From NCBI GenBank assembly GCA_004010535.1, contig RQYE01000003.1:62001-126000 (forward strand): a DNA stretch of 64,000 nt. Direction: 5' to 3'. The DNA comes from Coriobacteriales bacterium OH1046 (GTDB lineage: Bacteria > Actinomycetota > Coriobacteriia > Coriobacteriales > Atopobiaceae). Positions 42,404-59,066 of the stretch are shown in pieces. Under the pieces are notes generated by a model. The model searched no databases. It saw only the letters and a list, made by a program, of their open reading frames with translations, and was not told the origin of the DNA. Positions within the stretch are counted from its first letter, which is position 1. Each line of letters starts with the position of its first letter. The position numbers and the translations under genes were made by a program.

Positions 42404-43276
42404 TCACCGCTGCTGCATGCGGCCCTCGCCGACGATCTCATCCATCCAGCGCAGGCATTTCCGATAGACCTCGGGTCCGGCGGGATTGGAGGTGTCGCGG
42501 TCGAAATCGTGGTCGAGACCGTAGACGGTGACGATATGCGCCTTGAGGCGCCGCGCAAGGCTCTTCGATACTGCGTAGGGGACGTCGTTGTCTCCCGTGG
42601 AGGCGGCGTAGAAGACGGGCGGCATGGCGGCGATCTGCCCGTTGCTAAGCGAGAAGCGCTCGATGTCGCCCGCGCCGACCCCGAGCATTTTGAGCCAGGA
42701 ACCCGTCTGCCTGGCATGGACGTACAGGGCGTATCGGGTGGCCTGCGGCCCGCATGTGGGCGGGGAGTCCGAGATCAGCCCCCGGACGGTCGATGCGCCT
42801 ACCGGGGGGAAGGATCGGTAGTATGCTGAGGGCGTTTCGAGAAAACCATCGGCGAGGCTGCCGTAGCCGTACAAATCGATCACGCCGGAGGGTTCGAACG
42901 CATCGGGCGCCTGCGCGAGCCGCCCCGCCAAGGTGAGGGCGAGATAGGCGCCGGCAGATCTTCCGAACAGGAACGCCGCGTTGGTGCCGAGCCCGGGCAT
43001 CAGGGTGCTCGCGAACCACTCCCAGAGCGCATCGAGGTACTGGTGGATCCGGGGCAGCGCCGTCTCGGGTGCAAGCGGGTAATCGGCGCATGCAAGCGTG
43101 TAGCCCGCATCCGTCAGCAGCTCACGGTACATCGGGGGAAGGTCATCCCGCATGCCGTAGAGGAGCCCTCCGCCATGAAGATACAGAATGCAGGTGCCGC
43201 GCGACGTGTCGGGACGGGGGCCGAACACGCTGATCCCGCAGCCCATCCGATCCCATTCGAACAGTTCCTCAATCAT
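42404..43276 (-). CDS. Alpha/beta-hydrolase, HSL/carboxylesterase type
   Basis: A 290-residue hydrolase with the oxyanion-hole motif LYLHGGGLLYG, nucleophile elbow FLFGRSAGAYLAL, acid region FYAASTGDNDVPYA and histidine YGLDHDFD, the arrangement of the hormone-sensitive-lipase group. No signal peptide is seen. It lies 20 bases after the PucR-type regulator on the same strand and is probably cotranscribed. Its link to the ureido-acid cluster is positional; it could hydrolyse an ester or amide precursor, but no substrate can be read from sequence. The ribosome site is weak. Confidence 0.8.
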   Translation of the reverse strand: MIEELFEWDRMGCGISVFGPRPDTSRGTCILYLHGGGLLYGMRDDLPPMYRELLTDAGYTLACADYPLAPETALPRIHQYLDALWEWFASTLMPGLGTNAAFLFGRSAGAYLALTLAGRLAQAPDAFEPSGVIDLYGYGSLADGFLETPSAYYRSFPPVGASTVRGLISDSPPTCGPQATRYALYVHARQTGSWLKMLGVGAGDIERFSLSNGQIAAMPPVFYAASTGDNDVPYAVSKSLARRLKAHIVTVYGLDHDFDRDTSNPAGPEVYRKCLRWMDEIVGEGRMQQR

Positions 43277-43296: not shown

Positions 43297-44931
43297 TCAG
43301 CAGGATTCGAGCAGGTACGCGAGTTTGCCGGCCATCAGGATCTGCGCCATATCGTTCGAGTCATGGACATCGATCCCGTATCGCTCCCTGATACGGTTGA
43401 CGCGGTAATGGATCGTTTTGGGATGGACATACAAGCGCCGTGCCGTCTCGTTGAAGTCGCCGTTGCATTCGCAGAGCAGTGCGAGTGTTTTGAACCCCTC
43501 GGGATTGTCGCGCTCGAGTTGCTGGAGGCGGGGATCGACGTAGGTGGCGAGATACGAGAGATCCCCCGCCTCGATCAGGAATTTGAATATCCCCAGCTCA
43601 CCATAGCTGATGCAGCGATTCGCAAGATGATCGGCATCGAAGAGCCTGTTGATTCCCATTACCTGGCCGTAGATCTTCTCGATCGAATAGCGATCCGTGC
43701 TATCGGACAGCGCGATGAGGTACGTGAAGGGCGCGAGCGCCGGATCCGCCTGCATATCCGAGAGGACGCCCGTCACGGCAGCGCGGTCGAAGCCGACGGA
43801 TCTCGAGGTGTGGTTCCGCAGGAAGGCTATCCGGTCCCCGCTCTCGGAGAACACGGCGTTCTTGTAGAGCTGCTTGATCCTTCGGCTGAATGTCGAGAAG
43901 AGGTCGTGGGTCTGATTGGAACGGCTCGAATCGGTGATCGCCACGCGCAGCAGCATCACCTGGTAGTGCCTGTGCGCATCGATTGACAGCTTCCTGACCG
44001 CATCATCGATCTCATCGTGCGAGGAGTAGCGATTCTGCAGGAGATCGTGCACGACCATGTTATTCCTGCTGAAGAGCTCTTGATCGATGGCCTCCTGCTT
44101 GAGGAGCTCCATCAGCATGAGGCTCGCATAATTCTCTATGACCATCCGGTCGATCTCGGAGACCTCGGCGGGCGGTTTATGGACGATCACATATGACGGT
44201 GCCCCCGATTGCAATGTCACGAGCAGTGCTATGGCATCCTCCTCGTCTCCGCTCTCGTGCATGATTCGCGCATTGAAATAATGGAAGCCCTGATAGTGGG
44301 GGTAGTAGAATTCCTCGAAGCGGATCGACTCGAAACGATTCCGCTTCGGATCGGTGCTGATGCGCACGTTGCCCGTGCGATCGAAGTACGTGATGTCGTA
44401 TCCCGTTTGCGCCTTCAGGCGGACCGTGATCTCATGGATGCTCGGCTGTTCGACAGCGAGTTTGATCGTCTTCCGATGGATATCGTAGAAGGTGTTGAGA
44501 AGGGAGAAGTTCGCATCGATCACGGTGCCCATGACGTCCATGAGCACCGCCTCATAGGTGATGGACGAGTCCATTTGGATGACGGCGATGCCGGCGCGGT
44601 CGCAGATGGCGAGGTACGTATCGATCGCGTCCGACACCAACCTGCCGGGTTTGTAGATGATGCCCGCGATATCGATTTCCTGGAGCTTCTGGAAGAATCC
44701 CCTGCGGTCATCCTCCCCGAGAGGCTCCAAGGCGAAGAAGCTCGTGATGAGCACGAGGCCGGGTTTGGCCCATTTCTCGACGTCGGGGCCCTCGATGATC
44801 ATGGCATTGGTCACCCCGTGATCGAGTCCCGAGATCCCCGCGATCACGTTCGATCCCTTCAGCGAGGGCAGGCGCATGATCTCGCGCATCGTGAGCGGCT
44901 GGATATGCCTTCCGGCGTTCTTCTTGACCAT
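43297..44931 (-). CDS. PucR-family transcriptional regulator
   Basis: A 544-residue regulator. The N-terminal PucR domain (PF07905 type) begins MREIMRLPSLKGSNVIAGISGLDHGVTNAMIIEGPD; a central region (~140-330) looks like a ligand-sensing domain; the C-terminus has the PucR helix-turn-helix LLCECNGDFNETARRLYVHPKTIHYRVNRIRERYGID. In Bacillus, PucR controls purine and allantoin catabolism. It is divergent from the FdrA-YlbE gene cluster, so it is the obvious candidate regulator of oxalurate metabolism. A GAGGGG site precedes the ATG. Confidence 0.9.
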   Translation of the reverse strand: MVKKNAGRHIQPLTMREIMRLPSLKGSNVIAGISGLDHGVTNAMIIEGPDVEKWAKPGLVLITSFFALEPLGEDDRRGFFQKLQEIDIAGIIYKPGRLVSDAIDTYLAICDRAGIAVIQMDSSITYEAVLMDVMGTVIDANFSLLNTFYDIHRKTIKLAVEQPSIHEITVRLKAQTGYDITYFDRTGNVRISTDPKRNRFESIRFEEFYYPHYQGFHYFNARIMHESGDEEDAIALLVTLQSGAPSYVIVHKPPAEVSEIDRMVIENYASLMLMELLKQEAIDQELFSRNNMVVHDLLQNRYSSHDEIDDAVRKLSIDAHRHYQVMLLRVAITDSSRSNQTHDLFSTFSRRIKQLYKNAVFSESGDRIAFLRNHTSRSVGFDRAAVTGVLSDMQADPALAPFTYLIALSDSTDRYSIEKIYGQVMGINRLFDADHLANRCISYGELGIFKFLIEAGDLSYLATYVDPRLQQLERDNPEGFKTLALLCECNGDFNETARRLYVHPKTIHYRVNRIRERYGIDVHDSNDMAQILMAGKLAYLLESC

Positions 44932-45167
44932 GTCATCCCCTCATCTTCCGCCATGCAATGGTACGGAGCGGTTGGAAATCCATTTCCGCGATGGATAAAA
45001 AAACACAGTATCTGCTTCCCTCCAATCTAACGACAAAATGCGCCGCCGGCAAGAGAATTGAATTGTTTCAAGCCGATGCTGGGGGATCCGGTCGGCGTTG
45101 GGGCCGTGGCATGCAGCGGCCGCAGGTCCTTTCCGGCAGCCATGCGACAGAGAGAAAGGCGGATTGA
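44932..45167. promoter_or_regulatory. Divergent control region of pucR-type gene and fdrA cluster
   Basis: A 236-nt region between the divergent starts. It contains an inverted repeat GGAAAT-CC-ATTTCC (44974-44987), overlapping ATCCAT/ATGGAT, and an A-rich run at 44996-45003. A TTGAA/TTCAA pair lies near 45056-45072. These are candidate PucR-type regulator sites. No strong -10/-35 pair could be fixed. Confidence 0.45.
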
Positions 45168-48100
45168 ATGCTCAGAACGGTTATCAAGAAGAACAGCTAT
45201 CAGGACTCGATCAACCTCATGCTGCTCACCAACGAGGTCAACGCCCTTGCCGGCGTCAACAAGAGCCAGATCATGATGGGCACCGATGCGAACAAGGATA
45301 TCTTCCGCAACTCGGGCCTCCTCACCGCAGAGGCGGAAGCTGCAGACCCGTCCGACATGGTCCTCGTCGTCGATACCGACGATGAGGAGATCATCGGCAA
45401 GGTTCTCGGGATCGCCGAGAAATTCCTCTCCGACCTCTCGACGAAGAAGGAGGCCTCGGGTATCCAGGAGGCGACCACGTGGGAGGAAGCCTATGCCATG
45501 CTCCCCGATGCTGACCTCGCCCTCTTCTCCACGCCCGGCGAGTATACCGCGCCCGAGATCGAGAAAGCCCTGAACCACGGCCTGCATGTGTTCTCGTTCT
45601 CCGACAACGTCTCGCTCGAGGATGAGGTCCGCCTGAAGAAGCTCGCACATGAGAAGGGCCTCATGCTCATGGGTCCCGATTGCGGCACCGGCGTCATCTC
45701 CTCCATCCCCGTCGCCTTCACCAACGTCTCCAAGCCCGGCAATATCGGCATCGTCGGAGCCTCCGGTACGGGTATCCAGGAGGTCGCCGCCATCATCGAT
45801 CGTCTCGGCGGGGGCCTGATCCATGCCATCGGCACCGGTGGCCGCGATCTCAACGAGGCGGTCGGCGCCATCACCGTCAAGGATGCCATCATCGGCCTCG
45901 AGAACCATGAGCCCACCGATGTCATCTGCGTCATCTCCAAACCGCCCGCGCCCGCCGTGCGCGACGAGGTCGTCGATCTGCTCGAGAAGTGCACCAAGCC
46001 CGTCGTCGCCATCTTCCTGGGCGAGAAGCCCGAGGCGCATCAGGGCAAGGTCTACCTGGCCCATACCCTCGAGGAGACGGCGAAGATCGCGGTCGATCTC
46101 GCCAAGGGCAGCGAGGTCAAGAAGAACTATCTCGAGCCGCTTGATTTTTCCTGCGAGAACCCGCTCGGCGACGACAAGACCGTCATCGGCCTGTACTCGG
46201 GCGGCACGCTCGCCAACGAGGCCGGCATGCTCATCTCCGAGGCGCTCGATCTGGGCGGCGTGGTCAAGGAGGAGGGCTTCATCCTCCACTCGCAAGGCTA
46301 CGATGTGATCGACCTCGGCGATGACATCTACACCCAGGGCAAGCCGCATCCCATGATCGATCCCGAGGTGCGCATCGACTACATCAAGAAGTACGGCGCC
46401 ATGGGGTCCACCGGCGTGATCCTCTTCGACTGCATGCTGGGCTACGGCTGCCATCCCGATATGGCCGCCGCGCTCGCCCCCGTTATCAAAGAGCAGCTCG
46501 AGCATGCCAAGGCTACCGGTCGCGAGCTCTATTTCGTGGGCTCCGTAACAGGCACCGAGAACGATCCGCAGGACTATCGCAAATCCTTTGCAACCCTGCG
46601 CGAGGCCGGCGCCATCATGGAGACCTCCAACGCCCGCGCCATCCGCCTTGCCCTCGAGATCAAGGGCATCCACTTCACCGAGGAGGACCGCGAGGTCGTT
46701 CCCTACAAGATCAAGGACCCGAGCCCCCTGCCCCAGCCTTCCGAGCAGGTCATGGAGCTTCTCAACACCACGCCGCGTATCATCAATGTGGGCGTTGAGA
46801 GCTTCAACGATTCCCTTAGGGCGTATGGTGCGCAGTCGGTCCAGTTCTCTTGGAGACCCCTCGCCGGGGGCAACAAGCGCATGATCCACCTGCTCAACGA
46901 ACTCGAGAAGATCGAGGGCATCGATGAGGCCAACGAGCGCATCTGCGATCGCTTCAAGGAGTCGCAGCCCTTCCTCGTGGATATCGTCCCCGCCAAGACC
47001 GTCATCCCCGAGCTCGCCCGCGAGCAGAAGACCCTGCTCCATGCCGGTCCTCCCATCGTCTGGGAGAACATGATGGGCCCGATGAGGGGTTCCTGCATCG
47101 GCGCGGCGCTCTTCGAGGGCTGGGCGGAGACCGAGGAGGAGGCGCTCGCGCTTCTCGAGGCCGGCGAGGTGGAGTTCATCCCCTGCCACCACTGCCATGC
47201 CGTAGGCCCCATGGGGGGCATCACCTCCGCCAACATGGCCGTCCTCGTGGTGCACAACATGGCCGATGACACCGTCGCCTACTGCACCATGAACGAGGGT
47301 ATCGGCAAGGTCCTGCGCTTCGGGGCCTACAGCCAGGAGGTCGTCGACCGCCTGCACTGGATGGCCGATGAGCTCGGACCCGTGCTGGCAAAGGCCCTCA
47401 AGCTGAAAGAGGGCGGTATCAACCTCAGCGTCCTCATGGCCCGCGCCATCACCCAGGGCGACGAGTTCCACCAGCGCAACATGGCCGCTTCGCTCAACTT
47501 CCTCAAGGAGGTGGCGCCGCTCATCATCCAGACCGATGCCGATGATGCCGCCAAGCAGCGCGTCATCCAGTTCCTTGCCGACACTGACCAATTCTTCCTG
47601 AACGTCATGATGGCCACCGGCAAGGCGATCGTGGACTATGCCCGTAAGGACAAGGAGGGATGCATCGTCTCCACGATGACCCGCAACGGCTACGACTTCG
47701 GCATCCGCATCGCCGCCCTCGGCGACGAGTGGTTCACCGCGCCGGTCAACACCCCCATCGGCCTCTATTTCACCGGCTTCACCGCCGAGGATGGCTGCCC
47801 GGATAACGGCGATTCCGCTATCTGCGAGACGGTGGGCGTGGGCGGCATGGCGATGGTCGCCGCTCCCGGCGTCACGCGCTTCGTCGGGGCGGGCGGCTTC
47901 GAGGATGCGCTCAACATCTCCAACGAGATGGAGAGGATCTGCGTCACCCATAACCCCAACTGGTCGATTCCCACATGGGATTTCAAGGGCACCTGTCTCG
48001 GCATCGATATCCGCAAGGTCGTCGCCACGGGCATCACCCCGATCATCAACACCGGCATCGCCCACCGCGAGGCGGGCATCGGCCAGGTCGGTGCCGGTAC

Positions 48101-48170
48101 CGTCCGCGCCCCGCTCGCCTGCTTCGAGAAGGCTCTCGAGGCTTACTGTGCGAGCCTCGGCATCGAGTAG
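45168..48170 (+). CDS. Fused FdrA-YlbE (AllF-AllG) oxamate carbamoyltransferase subunits
   Basis: A 1000-residue protein joining two normally separate families. Residues ~1-530 are FdrA-like (AllF), related to succinyl-CoA synthetase alpha/beta: MGPDCGTGVISSIPVAF, GNIGIVGASGTGIQEVAAIIDRLGG, FDCMLGYGCHPD. Residues ~535-1000 are a DUF1116/YlbE domain (AllG), starting PRIINVGVESF, with GPMRGSCIGAALFEGWAE, PCHHCHAVGPMGGITSANMAV and NTGIAHREAGIGQVGAG. FdrA, YlbE and YlbF form oxamate carbamoyltransferase, which phosphorolyses oxalurate to oxamate and carbamoyl phosphate. E. coli proteins are ~555 and ~419 residues, so both domains are full length. GAGAAAGG precedes the ATG. Cytoplasmic. Confidence 0.88.
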   Translation: MLRTVIKKNSYQDSINLMLLTNEVNALAGVNKSQIMMGTDANKDIFRNSGLLTAEAEAADPSDMVLVVDTDDEEIIGKVLGIAEKFLSDLSTKKEASGIQEATTWEEAYAMLPDADLALFSTPGEYTAPEIEKALNHGLHVFSFSDNVSLEDEVRLKKLAHEKGLMLMGPDCGTGVISSIPVAFTNVSKPGNIGIVGASGTGIQEVAAIIDRLGGGLIHAIGTGGRDLNEAVGAITVKDAIIGLENHEPTDVICVISKPPAPAVRDEVVDLLEKCTKPVVAIFLGEKPEAHQGKVYLAHTLEETAKIAVDLAKGSEVKKNYLEPLDFSCENPLGDDKTVIGLYSGGTLANEAGMLISEALDLGGVVKEEGFILHSQGYDVIDLGDDIYTQGKPHPMIDPEVRIDYIKKYGAMGSTGVILFDCMLGYGCHPDMAAALAPVIKEQLEHAKATGRELYFVGSVTGTENDPQDYRKSFATLREAGAIMETSNARAIRLALEIKGIHFTEEDREVVPYKIKDPSPLPQPSEQVMELLNTTPRIINVGVESFNDSLRAYGAQSVQFSWRPLAGGNKRMIHLLNELEKIEGIDEANERICDRFKESQPFLVDIVPAKTVIPELAREQKTLLHAGPPIVWENMMGPMRGSCIGAALFEGWAETEEEALALLEAGEVEFIPCHHCHAVGPMGGITSANMAVLVVHNMADDTVAYCTMNEGIGKVLRFGAYSQEVVDRLHWMADELGPVLAKALKLKEGGINLSVLMARAITQGDEFHQRNMAASLNFLKEVAPLIIQTDADDAAKQRVIQFLADTDQFFLNVMMATGKAIVDYARKDKEGCIVSTMTRNGYDFGIRIAALGDEWFTAPVNTPIGLYFTGFTAEDGCPDNGDSAICETVGVGGMAMVAAPGVTRFVGAGGFEDALNISNEMERICVTHNPNWSIPTWDFKGTCLGIDIRKVVATGITPIINTGIAHREAGIGQVGAGTVRAPLACFEKALEAYCASLGIE

Positions 48171-48188
48171 GCAGAGGAAGCACCGGAT

Positions 48189-49064
48189 ATGGCGAAGGAG
48201 GGAGCTGTCAGCAGTTACGTGCTGGCCCAAGAGCTGGAAGGGGCGCGTGGGAGCGTCCACTCCACCTTCCGCTCGAGCATGAACGTGCAGGCCGACGGCT
48301 TCCTCCTCCATATCGGCAGCATCGTCGATCCGCTGTCCTGCCTTGGGATCGCTATTCCCGAGGCCGAGATGGGAACCCTTCTCGGGACGGCCCGGCGAGG
48401 AGATCTTGCGTTCTTCGATAAGGGAGTTCTGAGGATCTATACCAGGACGGGCGTCACGAGGATTGCGTATGGGGATTTCGAGCCCGTGGATACCGCCATC
48501 CCTTCTCTTGGGGATGACTGGTGTGCAGATGTCCTGCGTAGCGCCATCGCACCTATCGACTTTCGGGAGGAAATGGGGCTCCCTCCTTCCCAAGACCTCG
48601 CGCGGGCTCTGCACGGCCTCTCCTGCGCATCCTTCGGAGTCGAGGACGTCGAATCGGTGCGGGCGGCAGTACGGTTCCTGGTCGGCCGGGGACTCGGCCT
48701 CACTCCCTCGGGGGACGATCTCCTCGCCGGGTACGGTACCGCCCTGTGGGCACGGTCCCGAGACGACCTGCTTGCCGAGCTCCACATGGATAGGTTGCCC
48801 GCATGCACCACCGACGTGAGCGCAGCCTATCTGCGCGCTATGGCGGAAGGACATGCCAACACGGGCTTCATCGATCTCGTGCGCTCGCTGCGCGCAGGCG
48901 ATGGGAGCCTTTGCCGGGGAGCAGTCGACGAGATATGCTCCATCGGCCACACCTCCGGCCACGACAGCCTCCTGGGTTTTGTCGTGGGAATGGGTCTGCT
49001 CGAATCCATCGGCGGGCCCGAGTGCTTTTCCTGCGAGAGCAGGACCGGTCGTATCGCGTCGTAA
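48189..49064 (+). CDS. DUF2877 protein (AllH/YlbF-like), third oxamate carbamoyltransferase subunit
   Basis: A 291-residue DUF2877 protein. Its best-conserved stretches are GLTPSGDDLLAGYGTALW and CSIGHTSGHDSLLGFVVGMG, both typical of the family. YlbF (AllH) is required with FdrA and YlbE for oxamate carbamoyltransferase activity. It follows the fused gene by 18 bases with a GAGGAAG site. The protein has no membrane segment or signal. Confidence 0.85.
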   Translation: MAKEGAVSSYVLAQELEGARGSVHSTFRSSMNVQADGFLLHIGSIVDPLSCLGIAIPEAEMGTLLGTARRGDLAFFDKGVLRIYTRTGVTRIAYGDFEPVDTAIPSLGDDWCADVLRSAIAPIDFREEMGLPPSQDLARALHGLSCASFGVEDVESVRAAVRFLVGRGLGLTPSGDDLLAGYGTALWARSRDDLLAELHMDRLPACTTDVSAAYLRAMAEGHANTGFIDLVRSLRAGDGSLCRGAVDEICSIGHTSGHDSLLGFVVGMGLLESIGGPECFSCESRTGRIAS

Positions 49065-49090
49065 TGCAGTCAGAGAGAAAGGAACGCCAA

Positions 49091-50341
49091 ATGGCAGAAG
49101 CAGCGGCCGCACCCAAGAAGAAGGGGCTCAGCAGCGGAATGCAGATCCTCATCGCGATGGTGGCGGCAATCCTCGCCGGCATCTTCTTCGGCGAGACCAT
49201 GAAGCAGATCGAGTTCATCGGCTCGATCTTCTTCCGCCTCATCCAGATGGGCATCTTCCCGTTCGTCATGTGCACCATCATCACCTCCGTCGGCAGCCTC
49301 ACCCCGCAGCAGCTTTCGGGCAACGGTCTCAAAGGCATCCTGGTCTTCGTGGTGACCTCCGGCATCGCCGCCGCAGTGGGGATCTTCGTTGCATTGGTCA
49401 TGCAGCCTGGTGCCGGCCTTGAGAATTCCAAGCTAGTCCAGGAGGCGGTGTTCGAGGCCGAGGCCTCCACGGTCACGTTGCAAGACACGCTCCTGAGCTT
49501 CTTCGGCAACAACATCGTCAATTCCATGAGCAGCGGCTCGATGATCCAGTGCATCGTCTTCTCGGTCGCCCTCGGCCTGGTCATCTCCAGCTGGCGCAAC
49601 TCCCACGACGGCAACTGCATCGTGTACGATTTCTGCTCCCAGCTCGCCGAGCTCCTCATCCGCATCATCCGTGCCGTCATGACCTTCGCTCCCGTGGGCA
49701 TCTTCTGCTATGTCTCGTCGATGATCGGCAACCTCGGACCCGAGATCCTCATCCCGCTCGCGAAGTTCCTGCTCGCCATGGCGGTCGGCATGATCATCAT
49801 GTTCATCGGCTACTTCATCGTCATCAGCATCCGGTGCAAGCTGAACCCGTTCAGGCTCGTCGCCAAGATGCTCAACATGACCGTCATCGCCTTCGGCACC
49901 ATCTCCTCCGCCGTCACCCTGCCCATCGCCATGGAAGATACCAAGAAGAAGATCGGCTGCGATCCCGACATCGCCGATCTGCTCCTCCCGTTGGGCATGC
50001 CCCTCAACTCCAATGGCGTCGCCGTCCACCTCGCCGTGACCGCGCTCACCATCGCCCAGATGTACGGCATCGCCTTCGGTACCGGCCAGCTCATCAACGT
50101 CTGGCTCATCTCCTTCATGCTGTCCTTCTGCAATGCCGTGTCCCCTGGCGCGTCCCTGCTCTCCATGACCATGCTCATTCCCGCCCTCAACCTTCCGATG
50201 GCATCCATCGGCATCTTCGGCGGCCTCGAGTATCCCACCGGTGCCATCCGCACCACGCTCAATGTCGATGGCGACGTTTTCGCCGCCCTGCTCGTCGCCG
50301 GTGCCGACGGTATCGACCACGAGGTATTCGACGCTGATTAA
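49091..50341 (+). CDS. SDF-family (DAACS) carboxylate:cation symporter 1
   Basis: A 416-residue, eight-helix-type symporter of the dicarboxylate/amino acid:cation family (PF00375). The hairpin motif ISSAVTLPIAMED and the helix-7 region LPLGMPLNSNGVAVHL replace the usual serine-rich hairpin and NMDGT. In helix 8 GAIRTTLNVDGDVF retains the carboxylate-binding arginine and sodium-site aspartate, but has glycine where glutamate/aspartate transporters carry the aspartate that holds the amino group. This predicts a carboxylate substrate without a free alpha-amino group. In the ureido-acid cluster it likely imports ureidoglycolate, oxalurate or a related acid. The ATG at 49091 follows GAGAGAAAGGA. 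Confidence 0.85.
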   Translation: MAEAAAAPKKKGLSSGMQILIAMVAAILAGIFFGETMKQIEFIGSIFFRLIQMGIFPFVMCTIITSVGSLTPQQLSGNGLKGILVFVVTSGIAAAVGIFVALVMQPGAGLENSKLVQEAVFEAEASTVTLQDTLLSFFGNNIVNSMSSGSMIQCIVFSVALGLVISSWRNSHDGNCIVYDFCSQLAELLIRIIRAVMTFAPVGIFCYVSSMIGNLGPEILIPLAKFLLAMAVGMIIMFIGYFIVISIRCKLNPFRLVAKMLNMTVIAFGTISSAVTLPIAMEDTKKKIGCDPDIADLLLPLGMPLNSNGVAVHLAVTALTIAQMYGIAFGTGQLINVWLISFMLSFCNAVSPGASLLSMTMLIPALNLPMASIGIFGGLEYPTGAIRTTLNVDGDVFAALLVAGADGIDHEVFDAD

Positions 50342-50447: not shown

Positions 50448-51716
50448 ATGCCTACAGCACCTGAGAAGAAGTTCACGTACAACCCCACTATCGGCATCAT
50501 CATCGCGATGATTTTGGGTATCGCCGCCGGCCTCCTCGTGGGCAAGCCCATGGGCGAGGTCAAGTTCATCGGCGATGCGTTCTTCCGTCTGATCCAGATG
50601 AACATGATCCTGTTCGTCGTGACTCAGATCGTCGATGCGGTGGGAGGTCTTTCCGGTGAGGAGCTCAGCTCCATCGGCCTCAAGACCATAGCCGCCTTCC
50701 TCATCTCCTCGCTCCTCGCCTCTGCATGGGGCATCGCCTGCGCCGTCATCGCACGACCCGGCGCGGGCCTCGAGAACAGCGAGCTGGTCCTCAATGCCAC
50801 GACCGATCTGACGGCTACGACCACGACGGTCCAGGATACCATCCTCGGTTTCCTTCCCACCAATGCGGTCAGCGCCATGGCAAACGGCATGATGGTTCCA
50901 TCCATCGTGTTCTCGGTATTCCTAGGCGTCGCCATCACCATCTACCGCCAGCACCACGGTGGCCAGAGCAAGATGCTCGACCTTGTCCGCGAGCTCGGCG
51001 ACCTGCTCCTCACCATCATCCGCCTCGTCATGAACGTCGCGCCGATCGGCATCTTCTGCTATGTTTCCGCCTCAATCGGCACGCTGGGCCTCGAGATCCT
51101 CATCCCCATCGGGAAATACATTCTGGTCCTGCTCGTCGGCACCCTCATCTTCACCATCGTGTGGCTCATCGTCGTGAGCGTGCGCTGCGAACTTCCGATC
51201 GGCGCGCTCTTCAAGAAGATGATCCCCATGACCGTCATGGCGGCCGCCACGATCTCCTCGGCGGTCACCCTGCCGCTGGAGATGGACGATGCCAAGAGGA
51301 AGATCGGGCTGCGCGACAAGATCGCCGACCTCGCCCTGCCGCTCGGCATGCCGCTGAACTCCAACGGCTCCGCCCTGCACATGGCCGTGACCGCCATCTT
51401 CGTCGCCCAGATGTACGGCGTCGAATTCCAGGGCGGCGCGCTCGCCTACGTGTGCGTCATCGCCCTCATGCTCTCGCTTGCCAATGCCGTTGCACCGGGC
51501 GCCACGCTCATCTCCCTCACCATGCTCATCCCGGCTCTCGGCCTACCGCTCGAGGCGGTCGCGATCCTCGGCGGCCTCGAGTATATCGTCGCAGCCATCC
51601 GCACCACCCTCAACGTCAATTCCGATGTGTTCTGCGCGCTGCTCGTGGCCAAGAGCGAGGACGGCATCGACTACGACATCTTCTATGGCAGGAAAGAATA
51701 TCAAGAAGCTGCATAG
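50448..51716 (+). CDS. SDF-family (DAACS) carboxylate:cation symporter 2
   Basis: A 422-residue paralogue of the preceding gene in tandem. It shows the same deviations: ISSAVTLPLEMDD, LPLGMPLNSNGSALHM, and AAIRTTLNVNSDVF in helix 8, with alanine at the amino-group position and the arginine retained. The N-terminus FTYNPTIGIIIAMILGIAAGLLVG is the first helix. Two tandem symporters could divide uptake of related ureido acids and export of oxamate. The first start codon, ATG 50448, has GAGAGAACGGAC upstream. Confidence 0.85.
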   Translation: MPTAPEKKFTYNPTIGIIIAMILGIAAGLLVGKPMGEVKFIGDAFFRLIQMNMILFVVTQIVDAVGGLSGEELSSIGLKTIAAFLISSLLASAWGIACAVIARPGAGLENSELVLNATTDLTATTTTVQDTILGFLPTNAVSAMANGMMVPSIVFSVFLGVAITIYRQHHGGQSKMLDLVRELGDLLLTIIRLVMNVAPIGIFCYVSASIGTLGLEILIPIGKYILVLLVGTLIFTIVWLIVVSVRCELPIGALFKKMIPMTVMAAATISSAVTLPLEMDDAKRKIGLRDKIADLALPLGMPLNSNGSALHMAVTAIFVAQMYGVEFQGGALAYVCVIALMLSLANAVAPGATLISLTMLIPALGLPLEAVAILGGLEYIVAAIRTTLNVNSDVFCALLVAKSEDGIDYDIFYGRKEYQEAA

Positions 51717-51772: not shown

Positions 51773-52825
51773 ATGCTTGTTCCGCGTGAAGAGCTCAAAG
51801 AGCTCATGAAGAGGAAGTTCATGGCCGCCGGCATGCACGATGATGACGCCGACGCCCAGGCGGAGGTCCTGACCTGGTCCTCCGAGCGCGGTCTCCACAG
51901 CCATGGAGAGGTGCGCGTCGAGTACTACACCGAGCGCATCTCCAAGGGCGGCATGACGGTCGATCCCCAGTGGACGTGGACGCAGACCGGTCCCTGCACC
52001 GGCATCCTCGACGGTGACAACGGCTGCGGCTATCCCATGGCTATCCGCGGTATGGAGAAGGCCATCGAGCTGGCCAAGGAGAGCGGCATCGGCGTTGTGG
52101 GCGTCGCCAACGTGAGCCATACCGGTGCCATCGGCTACTATACCGAGATGGCCGCCAAGGCCGGTATGATCGGCCTGTCCTGCACCCAGTCCGATCCGAT
52201 GGTCATCCCCTATGGCGGCGCTGAGCCCTTCTACGGCACCAACCCCATCGCTCTGGCCGCTCCTACGGCTGACGAGCGCATCGTGAGCTTCGACATGGCG
52301 ACCACGGTCCAGGCATGGGGCAAGATCCTCGATGCCAAGTCTGCCGGCCGCTCCATCCCCGAGGGCTGGGCGGTCGACGAGGATGGCCTGCCCGTCACCG
52401 ACCCCAAGCTGGTCAACGCCCTTGTCGCCATCGCCGGCCCCAAGGGCTACGGCCTCATGATGATGGTGGACATCCTATCAGGCGTCCTGCTCGGCGTGCC
52501 TGCCGGAAAGAACGTCAGCTCTATGTACCATGATCTTTCCGAAGGCCGCAGGCTCGGGCACCTCAATGTTGCGATCAACCCCGAGTTCTTCTGCGGGGAC
52601 GCCGCTTTCCGCGCTCACATGTCCGAGGTGCTCGATGAGCTCGGTGCCGTCAAGCCGGGTGTCGGCTTCGACAAGGTGTACTACCCCGGAGAGCGTGCGC
52701 AGATGCGCATCAAGGCGACGGCCGAGGCAGGCGGTATCGAGGTCGTCGACGATATCTACGATTATCTTGTGAGCGATGATCTGTATCGCAGGAGCTGGGA
52801 TCACAAGAACCGCTTCGCGGAGTAG
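51773..52825 (+). CDS. allD: Ureidoglycolate dehydrogenase-like (Ldh_2/AllD family)
   Basis: A 350-residue NAD(P)-dependent oxidoreductase of the malate/L-sulfolactate/ureidoglycolate dehydrogenase family. The N-terminal segment ERGLHSHGEVRVEYYTERISKGG closely resembles AllD; further motifs are VANVSHTGAIGYYTEMAA with the catalytic histidine, YGTNPIALAAPT, MATTVQAWGKI and KGYGLMMMVDILSGVL. It would oxidise ureidoglycolate to oxalurate, the substrate of the enzyme encoded upstream. Other family members use malate or lactate, but the neighbourhood is that of allantoin catabolism. An AAAGGAG site precedes the ATG. Confidence 0.85.
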   Translation: MLVPREELKELMKRKFMAAGMHDDDADAQAEVLTWSSERGLHSHGEVRVEYYTERISKGGMTVDPQWTWTQTGPCTGILDGDNGCGYPMAIRGMEKAIELAKESGIGVVGVANVSHTGAIGYYTEMAAKAGMIGLSCTQSDPMVIPYGGAEPFYGTNPIALAAPTADERIVSFDMATTVQAWGKILDAKSAGRSIPEGWAVDEDGLPVTDPKLVNALVAIAGPKGYGLMMMVDILSGVLLGVPAGKNVSSMYHDLSEGRRLGHLNVAINPEFFCGDAAFRAHMSEVLDELGAVKPGVGFDKVYYPGERAQMRIKATAEAGGIEVVDDIYDYLVSDDLYRRSWDHKNRFAE

Positions 52826-52963: not shown

Positions 52964-53932
52964 ATGGCTAAATCTGCTGCGGCAAGCAATCGCGTCGTGA
53001 TCGCCTTGGGAGGCAACGCCCTCGGCAATACCCCGGAGGAGCAGATCGCGCGCGTGCGCGCTGCCGCGCCCGCGCTGCTCGAGGTGATCGGCTTGGGCAA
53101 CGAGATCATCATCACCCATGGCAACGGTCCCCAGGTCGGCATGATCCAAGACGCCTTCGCTGCTGCCAACACGCTTGATTCCGGGAAGTACCCCGCAATC
53201 GACCTTCCCGAGTGCGGGGCCATGAGCCAGGGCTACATCGGTTACCACCTCCAGCAGGCCATCGGCGTCGCCATGCACAAGGCCTACAAGCGCTGGCACG
53301 TGGCGACCGTCGTCACCCAGATCGAGGTCGATCCCGACGATCCCGCATTCTCGAGCCCCACCAAGCCTATCGGCGCCTTCATGACCGAGGAACAGGCCAA
53401 GGCGGAGCTCGTCGAGCATCCCGACTGGACGGTCGTGGAGGACTCCGGACGCGGATGGCGCCGCGTCGTCGCGTCGCCCGAACCCAAGAAGATCGTGGAG
53501 TGCGAGAGCATCCTCAACCTGCTCGACAACGAGTTCATCGTCATCGCCTGCGGCGGCGGCGGTATCCCCGTCGTCCGCGATTACGCCGACAAGGGCGCCT
53601 ATCGCGGTATCGCGGCCGTCATCGATAAGGATATGGGCGGCGAGCTTCTCGCCGAGGACTGCCATGCCGATACGCTCGTGCTTCTCACGGCCGTCGATCA
53701 CGTGGCCATCAACTTCGGCAAGCCCGACCAAACGGATCTCGAGGATATCACCACGGAGGAGGCCAAGCGCTATCTCGCGGAGGGGCAGTTCGGCAAGGGC
53801 TCCATGGAGCCCAAGGTGCGTGCCGCCGTGAAGTTCGCCGAGTCGCGTCCCGGCCGCACCTGCATCATCGGGAGCCTCGAGAGGGCGGCCGAGGCCATGG
53901 CGGGCCTCTCCGGGACGCGCATACATGCGTGA
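52964..53932 (+). CDS. arcC: Carbamate kinase
   Basis: A 322-residue amino-acid-kinase-fold enzyme. Motifs: VVIALGGNALGN, IITHGNGPQVGMI, ECGAMSQGYIGYHLQQAI, FIVIACGGGGIPVV and AVIDKDMGGELLAEDCHADTLVLLTAVDHVAINFG. It converts carbamoyl phosphate and ADP to ATP, CO2 and ammonia. No arginine deiminase or ornithine carbamoyltransferase gene is nearby; carbamoyl phosphate is expected to come from the oxamate carbamoyltransferase encoded in the same cluster. GGGAGAG precedes the ATG. Last gene of the cluster; a palindrome-rich region follows. Confidence 0.95.
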   Translation: MAKSAAASNRVVIALGGNALGNTPEEQIARVRAAAPALLEVIGLGNEIIITHGNGPQVGMIQDAFAAANTLDSGKYPAIDLPECGAMSQGYIGYHLQQAIGVAMHKAYKRWHVATVVTQIEVDPDDPAFSSPTKPIGAFMTEEQAKAELVEHPDWTVVEDSGRGWRRVVASPEPKKIVECESILNLLDNEFIVIACGGGGIPVVRDYADKGAYRGIAAVIDKDMGGELLAEDCHADTLVLLTAVDHVAINFGKPDQTDLEDITTEEAKRYLAEGQFGKGSMEPKVRAAVKFAESRPGRTCIIGSLERAAEAMAGLSGTRIHA

Positions 53933-58257: not shown

Positions 58258-58306
58258 ACCGTGACAAGGGGACAGGACCGTGACAAGGGGACAGGTCATT
58301 TGTCAC
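58258..58306. repeat. REP array, RAYT 3' side (tandem half-unit plus full unit)
   Basis: A 19-nt unit ACCGTGACAAGGGGACAGG occurs twice in direct tandem (58258-58276 and 58277-58295). The second continues into a complete 27-nt REP (58280-58306) ending TCATTTGTCAC. The RAYT stop codon is inside it. Confidence 0.9.
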
Positions 58307-59066
58307 GCTTTGCCCACGCCCTTGCAATGGAGCCCCTTCCTATCCCAGTCAAACGCTCGATCTGCCTGATGGAAAGACCCTCCTCCATCAGCATGCAAAG
58401 CAGCGCATTCCTGTGGGTGCGCTCCAAGGACTTGATGCTTGCGGTCGCGACATCGCCGAGAGCCCTCGAAGCTATCCCAAGGGCAACGGCATCCGGCATG
58501 GAGCGGGTCGCGTTTCTCAGCCTGCCGGTCTCGAGGCACTCATCGGCGCGGACATATCCTTCATGGAAGGCCCTATAATCCTGCGGTCCGGCGAAGAGGC
58601 TCTCGACGTCATCGATAGAGCAGTATCGTGGCGAGCCGAGGTATTCTCCGTAGCTCGACCATGCGTATTCGTTGAAATCTGCGATAGCCGCCTCGCTGGG
58701 ATTGAGGTGGATATAACGGATCACCGTCAACAGATACCCATCATTCTCCACCGGCTCGCTTTTGAAGCGCTCTTGGAACAGGTGCCCCACACGCCCGTAC
58801 TTCTCGTTGAAATAGCGGGCGTAACCGCCGCACAGCAGCCTCATGCACTCTGAGATGCGCTCCAAGGGGGCACGTATGAGCAGATGGAAGTGGTTTCCCA
58901 TGAGGCACCATGCGTACAGCTCGGCGTCCGTACGCACCAGGGAATCCTCCATGATGGAGAGGAACTCTCTGCGATCGGCGTCGTCTTCGAAGATGAGCTG
59001 CCGCCCCGTTCCGCGTGCGAGGACATGATAGATGTCGGCCTCGCTCTGCCTGCGTGCGATTCTCAT
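58296..59066 (-). CDS. REP-associated tyrosine transposase (RAYT, Y1_Tnp family)
   Basis: A 256-residue Y1/HUH transposase related to IS200 TnpA. The HUH motif is CLMGNHFHLLIRAP near residue 60; the conserved helix is LLTVIRYIHLNPSEAAIADF, which in this family carries the catalytic tyrosine. N-terminal YHVLARGTGRQLIFED and a YARYFNEKYGRVGHLFQERFKS segment are characteristic. A C-terminal helix-turn-helix-like region reads LSIRQIERLTGIGRGSIARAWAK. RAYTs are domesticated relatives of IS200 that act on REP palindromes. This gene is bracketed by inverted identical REP units. GGGGTGG precedes the ATG at 59066. Confidence 0.93.
   Translation of the reverse strand: MRIARRQSEADIYHVLARGTGRQLIFEDDADRREFLSIMEDSLVRTDAELYAWCLMGNHFHLLIRAPLERISECMRLLCGGYARYFNEKYGRVGHLFQERFKSEPVENDGYLLTVIRYIHLNPSEAAIADFNEYAWSSYGEYLGSPRYCSIDDVESLFAGPQDYRAFHEGYVRADECLETGRLRNATRSMPDAVALGIASRALGDVATASIKSLERTHRNALLCMLMEEGLSIRQIERLTGIGRGSIARAWAKRDK

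Follow-up and report, generated by a model that had tools for sequence, protein, structure and literature searches.

A naturally fused AllF-AllG protein as a widespread variant of a probable oxamate carbamoyltransferase

Oxalurate is a purine breakdown product that Escherichia coli splits with three proteins to obtain nitrogen and energy. The E. coli enzyme was assigned in 2024 and was described as a three-gene system whose quaternary structure is unknown; the purified AllF-AllG-AllH enzyme turns oxamate and carbamoyl phosphate into oxalurate, for which each of the three genes is needed (PMC11326118). In the window, the 64,000-nucleotide stretch analyzed here from the genome of Coriobacteriales bacterium OH1046, a gut-type actinobacterium, counterparts of AllF and AllG appear in one open reading frame. 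This raises the questions of whether the join is real, whether the joined protein is still the enzyme known from E. coli, and how far such an arrangement extends beyond this organism.

The gene, allFG (45168..48170, + strand), was identified by ORF reading, profile matches, and alignment to E. coli, and comprises 1000 codons with no stop. Its AllF/FdrA part (residues 1-580; 45168..46907, +) has a succinyl-CoA-synthetase-alpha-like fold with CoA_binding and Ligase_CoA Pfam domains (PF02629, PF00549) and is matched by the FdrA profile NF004760 at residues 1-579, covering profile positions 1-554 of 555 with 642 bits (cut-off 433). The AllG/DUF1116 part (residues 581-1000; 46908..48167, +) contains the entire PF06545 profile (positions 1-215 of 215, at residues 668-883; 293 bits) and is about 420 residues long, compared to 419 in E. 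coli. Against a reference made by placing E. coli K-12 AllG (419 aa) directly after AllF (555 aa), both from NC_000913.3, the fused protein aligned globally from end to end, with 470 of 964 aligned residues identical (48.8%). As both outer ends lie inside this alignment, both domains are full length. A reading of the sequence alone (here, the sequence-only reading) had proposed a real fusion of two full-length domains in a single 1000-residue frame, followed 18 bases downstream by the third subunit, AllH (DUF2877); the stop-free frame, the profile search, and the alignment bear out the first two points, and a PF11392 match at 48189..49064 (+; 82 bits, cut-off 25) the third. On the opposite strand, an open frame of 1361 codons (45027-49112, -) shadows both allFG and allH, and most likely results from codon usage at high G+C.

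The position of the join required correction. The sequence-only reading had put it at residues 530-535, but alignment to the separate E. coli proteins places it at about 580, with AllF ending opposite approximately residue 580 and AllG starting opposite approximately 581. The 45 residues before this point (536-580; 46773..46907, +) form a bridge segment with the pattern INxGxxSF...VxxxWxPxAGGNK, delimited by alignment and by an HMM scan of all the loci and of E. coli AllF, AllG, YahF, and YahG; in the window it reads INVGVESF...WRPLAGGNK. In the same scan, E. coli AllF and the AllF of 24 further split loci had the segment at the C terminus, but E. coli YahG and the AllG of 15 further split loci had it at the N terminus; 6 split loci yielded no hit to it on either partner, and the fused protein carries it once. 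Splits of the YahF/YahG type have their junction near residues 527-536. The split point therefore occurs in two places, and we infer that a shift of the gene boundary across the segment would be easiest through a fused intermediate. The idea that the segment folds only against AllG was unsupported: in a model restricted to AllF and the bridge (residues 1-582), it was confidently predicted (block pLDDT 80-96), and 3DMY could be aligned up to the last residue of the segment. The bridge thus probably forms part of the AllF fold, and in systems where AllG carries it, it would dock onto AllF.

How common the fusion might be was a question the sequence-only reading had left to later work, and the answer is that it is common. 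Searching 397 genomes of the window's order, the Coriobacteriales, with the whole protein returned a full match (residues 1-1000, or one residue short) with no internal stop in 22, the window's genome included; the other 21 proteins were 54-93% identical to that of the window. Among AllFG-type loci in the order, 22 of 23 were fused, leaving a single close split relative (G740). Two genomes of the window's own genus (L080 in G003 and L082 in G002) carry a divergent split AllF/AllG of about 43% identity and no fused gene. Sequencing or assembly error could join two neighboring genes, and the close split relative shows the separate arrangement within the order; however, the unbroken homologous frame recurs at these identities in 21 further Coriobacteriales genomes, as well as in many named Bacillota, which refutes an artifact as the source of the fusion and leaves it with a negligible probability.

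The fusion is not peculiar to the window's lineage either, as the many fused loci of named genomes from Bacillota and further phyla make clear. ORF reading of the best 80 loci from a scan of named genomes found a single AllF-AllG frame in species of Clostridium, Enterococcus, Tetragenococcus, Streptococcus, Facklamia, Amphibacillus, Marinilactibacillus, Saccharibacillus, Dorea, Extibacter, and Hungatella, among others, as well as in two Chloroflexi MAGs, Propionivibrio, and one Candidatus Adiutrix MAG; beyond Bacillota, the fused form extends to members of Chloroflexota, Desulfobacterota, and Pseudomonadota. Enorma burkinafasonensis (L145) and a genome of the window's order (G593) encode identical proteins. 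In evenly drawn samples searched with the same query, our own reading of the match tables gave 3 fused and 18 split AllFG-type genomes in Bacilli (3/21 fused) and 3 fused and 1 split in Clostridia (3/4 fused), the fused center genome being counted in each. Further candidate fusions in these two classes came from open-frame lengths of 1016-1057 around separate matches; the three that were read directly, all in Bacilli, were separate genes, and none was counted. Operons in Enterococcus were seen on very large plasmids, the fused form on one of 748 kb in E. faecalis and the split form on one of 919 kb in E. gilvus (L177 and L183). The fused form is already present in RefSeq as E. faecalis WP_002355249.1, under the name 'acyl-CoA synthetase FdrA', and no description of it was found in the literature searched. 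The AllF-AllG fusion is therefore common and widespread in gut bacteria, and already in the databases.

A tree of 109 AllF+AllG rows with YahFG as the outgroup placed the window and E. coli AllFG together in one 75-row clade (support, 100) consisting of 60 fused and 15 split rows. Fused rows do not form a single group within this clade, where at least 4 changes are needed, and monophyly of all fused rows was rejected (AU p 8e-31). The tree is compatible both with several fusions and with one fusion followed by several re-splits, which may have occurred, for example, in G740, Listeria booriae, and Faecalicatena contorta. Two fused AllF-AllG-like proteins from Spirochaete MAGs (Sphaerochaeta and Treponema; L148 and L154) lie outside the AllFG clade and probably represent an independent fusion. 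A different join was seen in Listeria booriae (L110:11078-12847), where AllH and carbamate kinase share a single frame of 590 aa but AllF and AllG are encoded separately. Genome G017 carries a second AllG by itself (66% identity; L070:16352-17779) a few kilobases downstream of its fused gene.

An AlphaFold2 model of the 1000-residue protein, built with 61 sequences, had a mean pLDDT of 91.4 and a pTM of 0.80. The folds of its two halves are represented by 3CLQ, a DUF1116 protein of E. faecalis V583, and 3DMY, E. coli FdrA, each of which was solved alone; the 3CLQ chain starts past the bridge segment. Residues 578-998 of the model matched 3CLQ closely (Z 63.4; rmsd 1.6 Å over 418 residues). Residues 98-566 matched 3DMY with Z 38 and an rmsd of 19 Å over 423 residues, indicating that the lobes are placed differently in the model and in 3DMY, and residues 12-318 matched succinyl-CoA synthetase alpha (Z 17-19). 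Together with the CoA_binding and Ligase_CoA domains, this last match could be taken to support the RefSeq name and hence an acyl-CoA synthetase. In succinyl-CoA synthetase, the phosphohistidine sits in the stretch after the second Rossmann lobe of alpha; in the fused protein, the corresponding residues 280-340 hold no invariant His across 49 sequences, and H394 is the only histidine that is invariant in the AllF half. This agrees with a transcarbamylase that borrows the fold. Moreover, no ATP-grasp beta-like gene was recognized among the operon genes scanned, and in assays E. coli AllFGH acts as a transcarbamylase (PMC11326118). We thus consider an acyl-CoA synthetase highly improbable.

Gene context points in the same direction. 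Downstream of allFG and allH on the + strand lie two SDF-family carboxylate symporters (49091..50341 and 50448..51716, both PF00375; the ORF of the first opens at 48803, and its likely start at 49091 was read from the sequence), ureidoglycolate dehydrogenase AllD (51773..52825; TIGR03175, 516 bits, equivalog cut-off 496), and carbamate kinase (52964..53932; NF009007, 342 bits, cut-off 266). Divergent from allFG are a PucR-family regulator (43297..44931, -; PF07905, PF13556) and an alpha/beta-hydrolase with HGGG and GRSAGA motifs (42404..43276, -; PF07859; relatives 3H04 and 2QRU). A few kilobases downstream of the operon is an IS200-like (Y1) transposase (58296-59066, -). AllH here is only 32.5% identical to its E. 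coli counterpart. AllH, AllD, and carbamate kinase are kept in the operon across many fused loci, and AllH adjoins nearly every fused gene in the part of the clade that contains the window. Some Lachnospiraceae have AllH upstream of the fused gene on the opposite strand, and in others it was not seen within the stretch read around the fused gene.

Full-length AllF and AllG, an adjoining AllH, and an operon shared with AllD and carbamate kinase identify the enzyme as an oxamate carbamoyltransferase by homology and context. We therefore propose with good confidence that this is an ordinary oxamate carbamoyltransferase in which AllF and AllG come pre-joined, acting with AllH and feeding carbamate kinase. 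The low AllH identity, the different lobe placement in 3DMY, and the existence of genomes without AllC and AllE weigh against this reading. AllD would convert ureidoglycolate to oxalurate; AllFG with AllH would then, by analogy to the purified E. coli enzyme, convert oxalurate and Pi to oxamate and carbamoyl phosphate, AllH presumably being needed here as well; and carbamate kinase would use the carbamoyl phosphate and ADP to yield ATP, ammonia, and CO2. Fusion would make AllF and AllG a permanent 1:1 pair, with the chains joined across the 45-residue segment that belongs to either partner in split systems, a role that is likely to be structural. The 1:1 stoichiometry predicted by the sequence-only reading holds, although it follows trivially from the fusion, and equal amounts of AllF and AllG had already been deduced for the split E. 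coli enzyme by its authors from SDS-PAGE (PMC11326118). Nothing in the analysis speaks for the channeling between domains that had been predicted alongside it.

Where the substrate originates is a separate matter. No match to AllC or AllE was found in the window's genome (98.6% complete), although these searches detected the two genes in eight relatives. A further 14 Coriobacteriales genomes with the fusion likewise gave no match to either, and several Bacillota that share the gene arrangement lack AllC. An allantoinase (AllB) search of the window's genome gave only sub-cut-off amidohydrolase matches (227 bits versus 357.85), and the allantoicase search (PF03561) gave no match anywhere, control genomes included. 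Since neither AllC nor AllE is detectable, the window's organism probably imports ureidoglycolate or oxalurate instead of degrading allantoin, and from their context the two SDF symporters are candidate importers. It is conceivable that the physiological acceptor or donor of this kind of carbamoyltransferase is a different ureido or carbamoyl acid, above all in genomes without AllC and AllE, which make up 15 of the 23 tested; no AllD occurs in the stretch read around several fused operons (L071, L077, L087, and L088), and an extra alpha/beta-hydrolase is conserved near fused loci. However, AllD in the window operon scores above its equivalog cut-off, and the order's fused proteins with and without genomic AllC/AllE fall in one clade and are mostly at least 70% identical to the window's. 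We therefore regard another substrate as unlikely and retain oxalurate and oxamate as the probable reactants.

Relatives of the alpha/beta-hydrolase accompany 40 of 51 fused loci; for split loci, the counts are 5 of 22 for the E. coli type and 0 of 15 for the YahG type; one of them, 2QRU, is the solved structure of the hydrolase that neighbors the fused gene in E. faecalis. The alpha/beta-hydrolase is a conserved neighbor and putative partner of the operon that travels with the fusion. A broader and more doubtful proposal is that fused AllFG, AllH, PucR, the SDF symporters, and the GRSAGA-type hydrolase constitute a self-contained module for scavenging and energy supply in gut bacteria without allantoin degradation. 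In such a module, ureidoglycolate or oxalurate from neighbors might be imported and ATP gained through carbamate kinase, with the hydrolase perhaps performing a step that has no assigned gene (for example, acting on oxamate or making the ureido acid).

Compared to known systems, the E. coli AllF-AllG-AllH locus (PMC11326118) shares with the window its subunits and their order, the level of AllF+AllG identity given above, AllH as the next gene, clustered carbamate kinase and AllD, and membership of one clade. It differs in that AllF and AllG are one chain in the window, AllC and AllE were not found in the window's genome, the regulator at the cluster is PucR rather than AllR/AllS, and SDF symporters and the alpha/beta-hydrolase are added. 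The E. faecalis protein WP_002355249.1 (plasmid NZ_CP143580.1) has the same fusion at 68.9% identity, and its locus likewise contains the alpha/beta-hydrolase, PucR, DUF2877, carbamate kinase, a dicarboxylate symporter, and AllD, but with another gene order past AllH, an extra MFS transporter and amidohydrolases, and a single listed SDF symporter where the window has two. The paralogous E. coli set YahE-YahF-YahG-YahI similarly groups DUF2877, FdrA-like, DUF1116, and carbamate-kinase-like genes, but falls as the outgroup in the tree and carries the bridge segment on YahG, with none on YahF.

The AllF-AllG join is thus a real fusion of a known enzyme in a widespread architecture, a variant and no new system. 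What this adds is modest: a two-chain form, not described in the papers searched, of an enzyme assigned only recently, a partner-switching bridge segment, and a hydrolase that travels with it. Natural fusion, together with a 45-residue segment that switches between AllF and AllG, points to a direct structural partnership of these two subunits, and fused AllFG would be a simpler, two-chain target for structural work. The current RefSeq name, acyl-CoA synthetase, would misdirect metabolic modeling of Enterococcus, Lachnospiraceae, and Coriobacteria.
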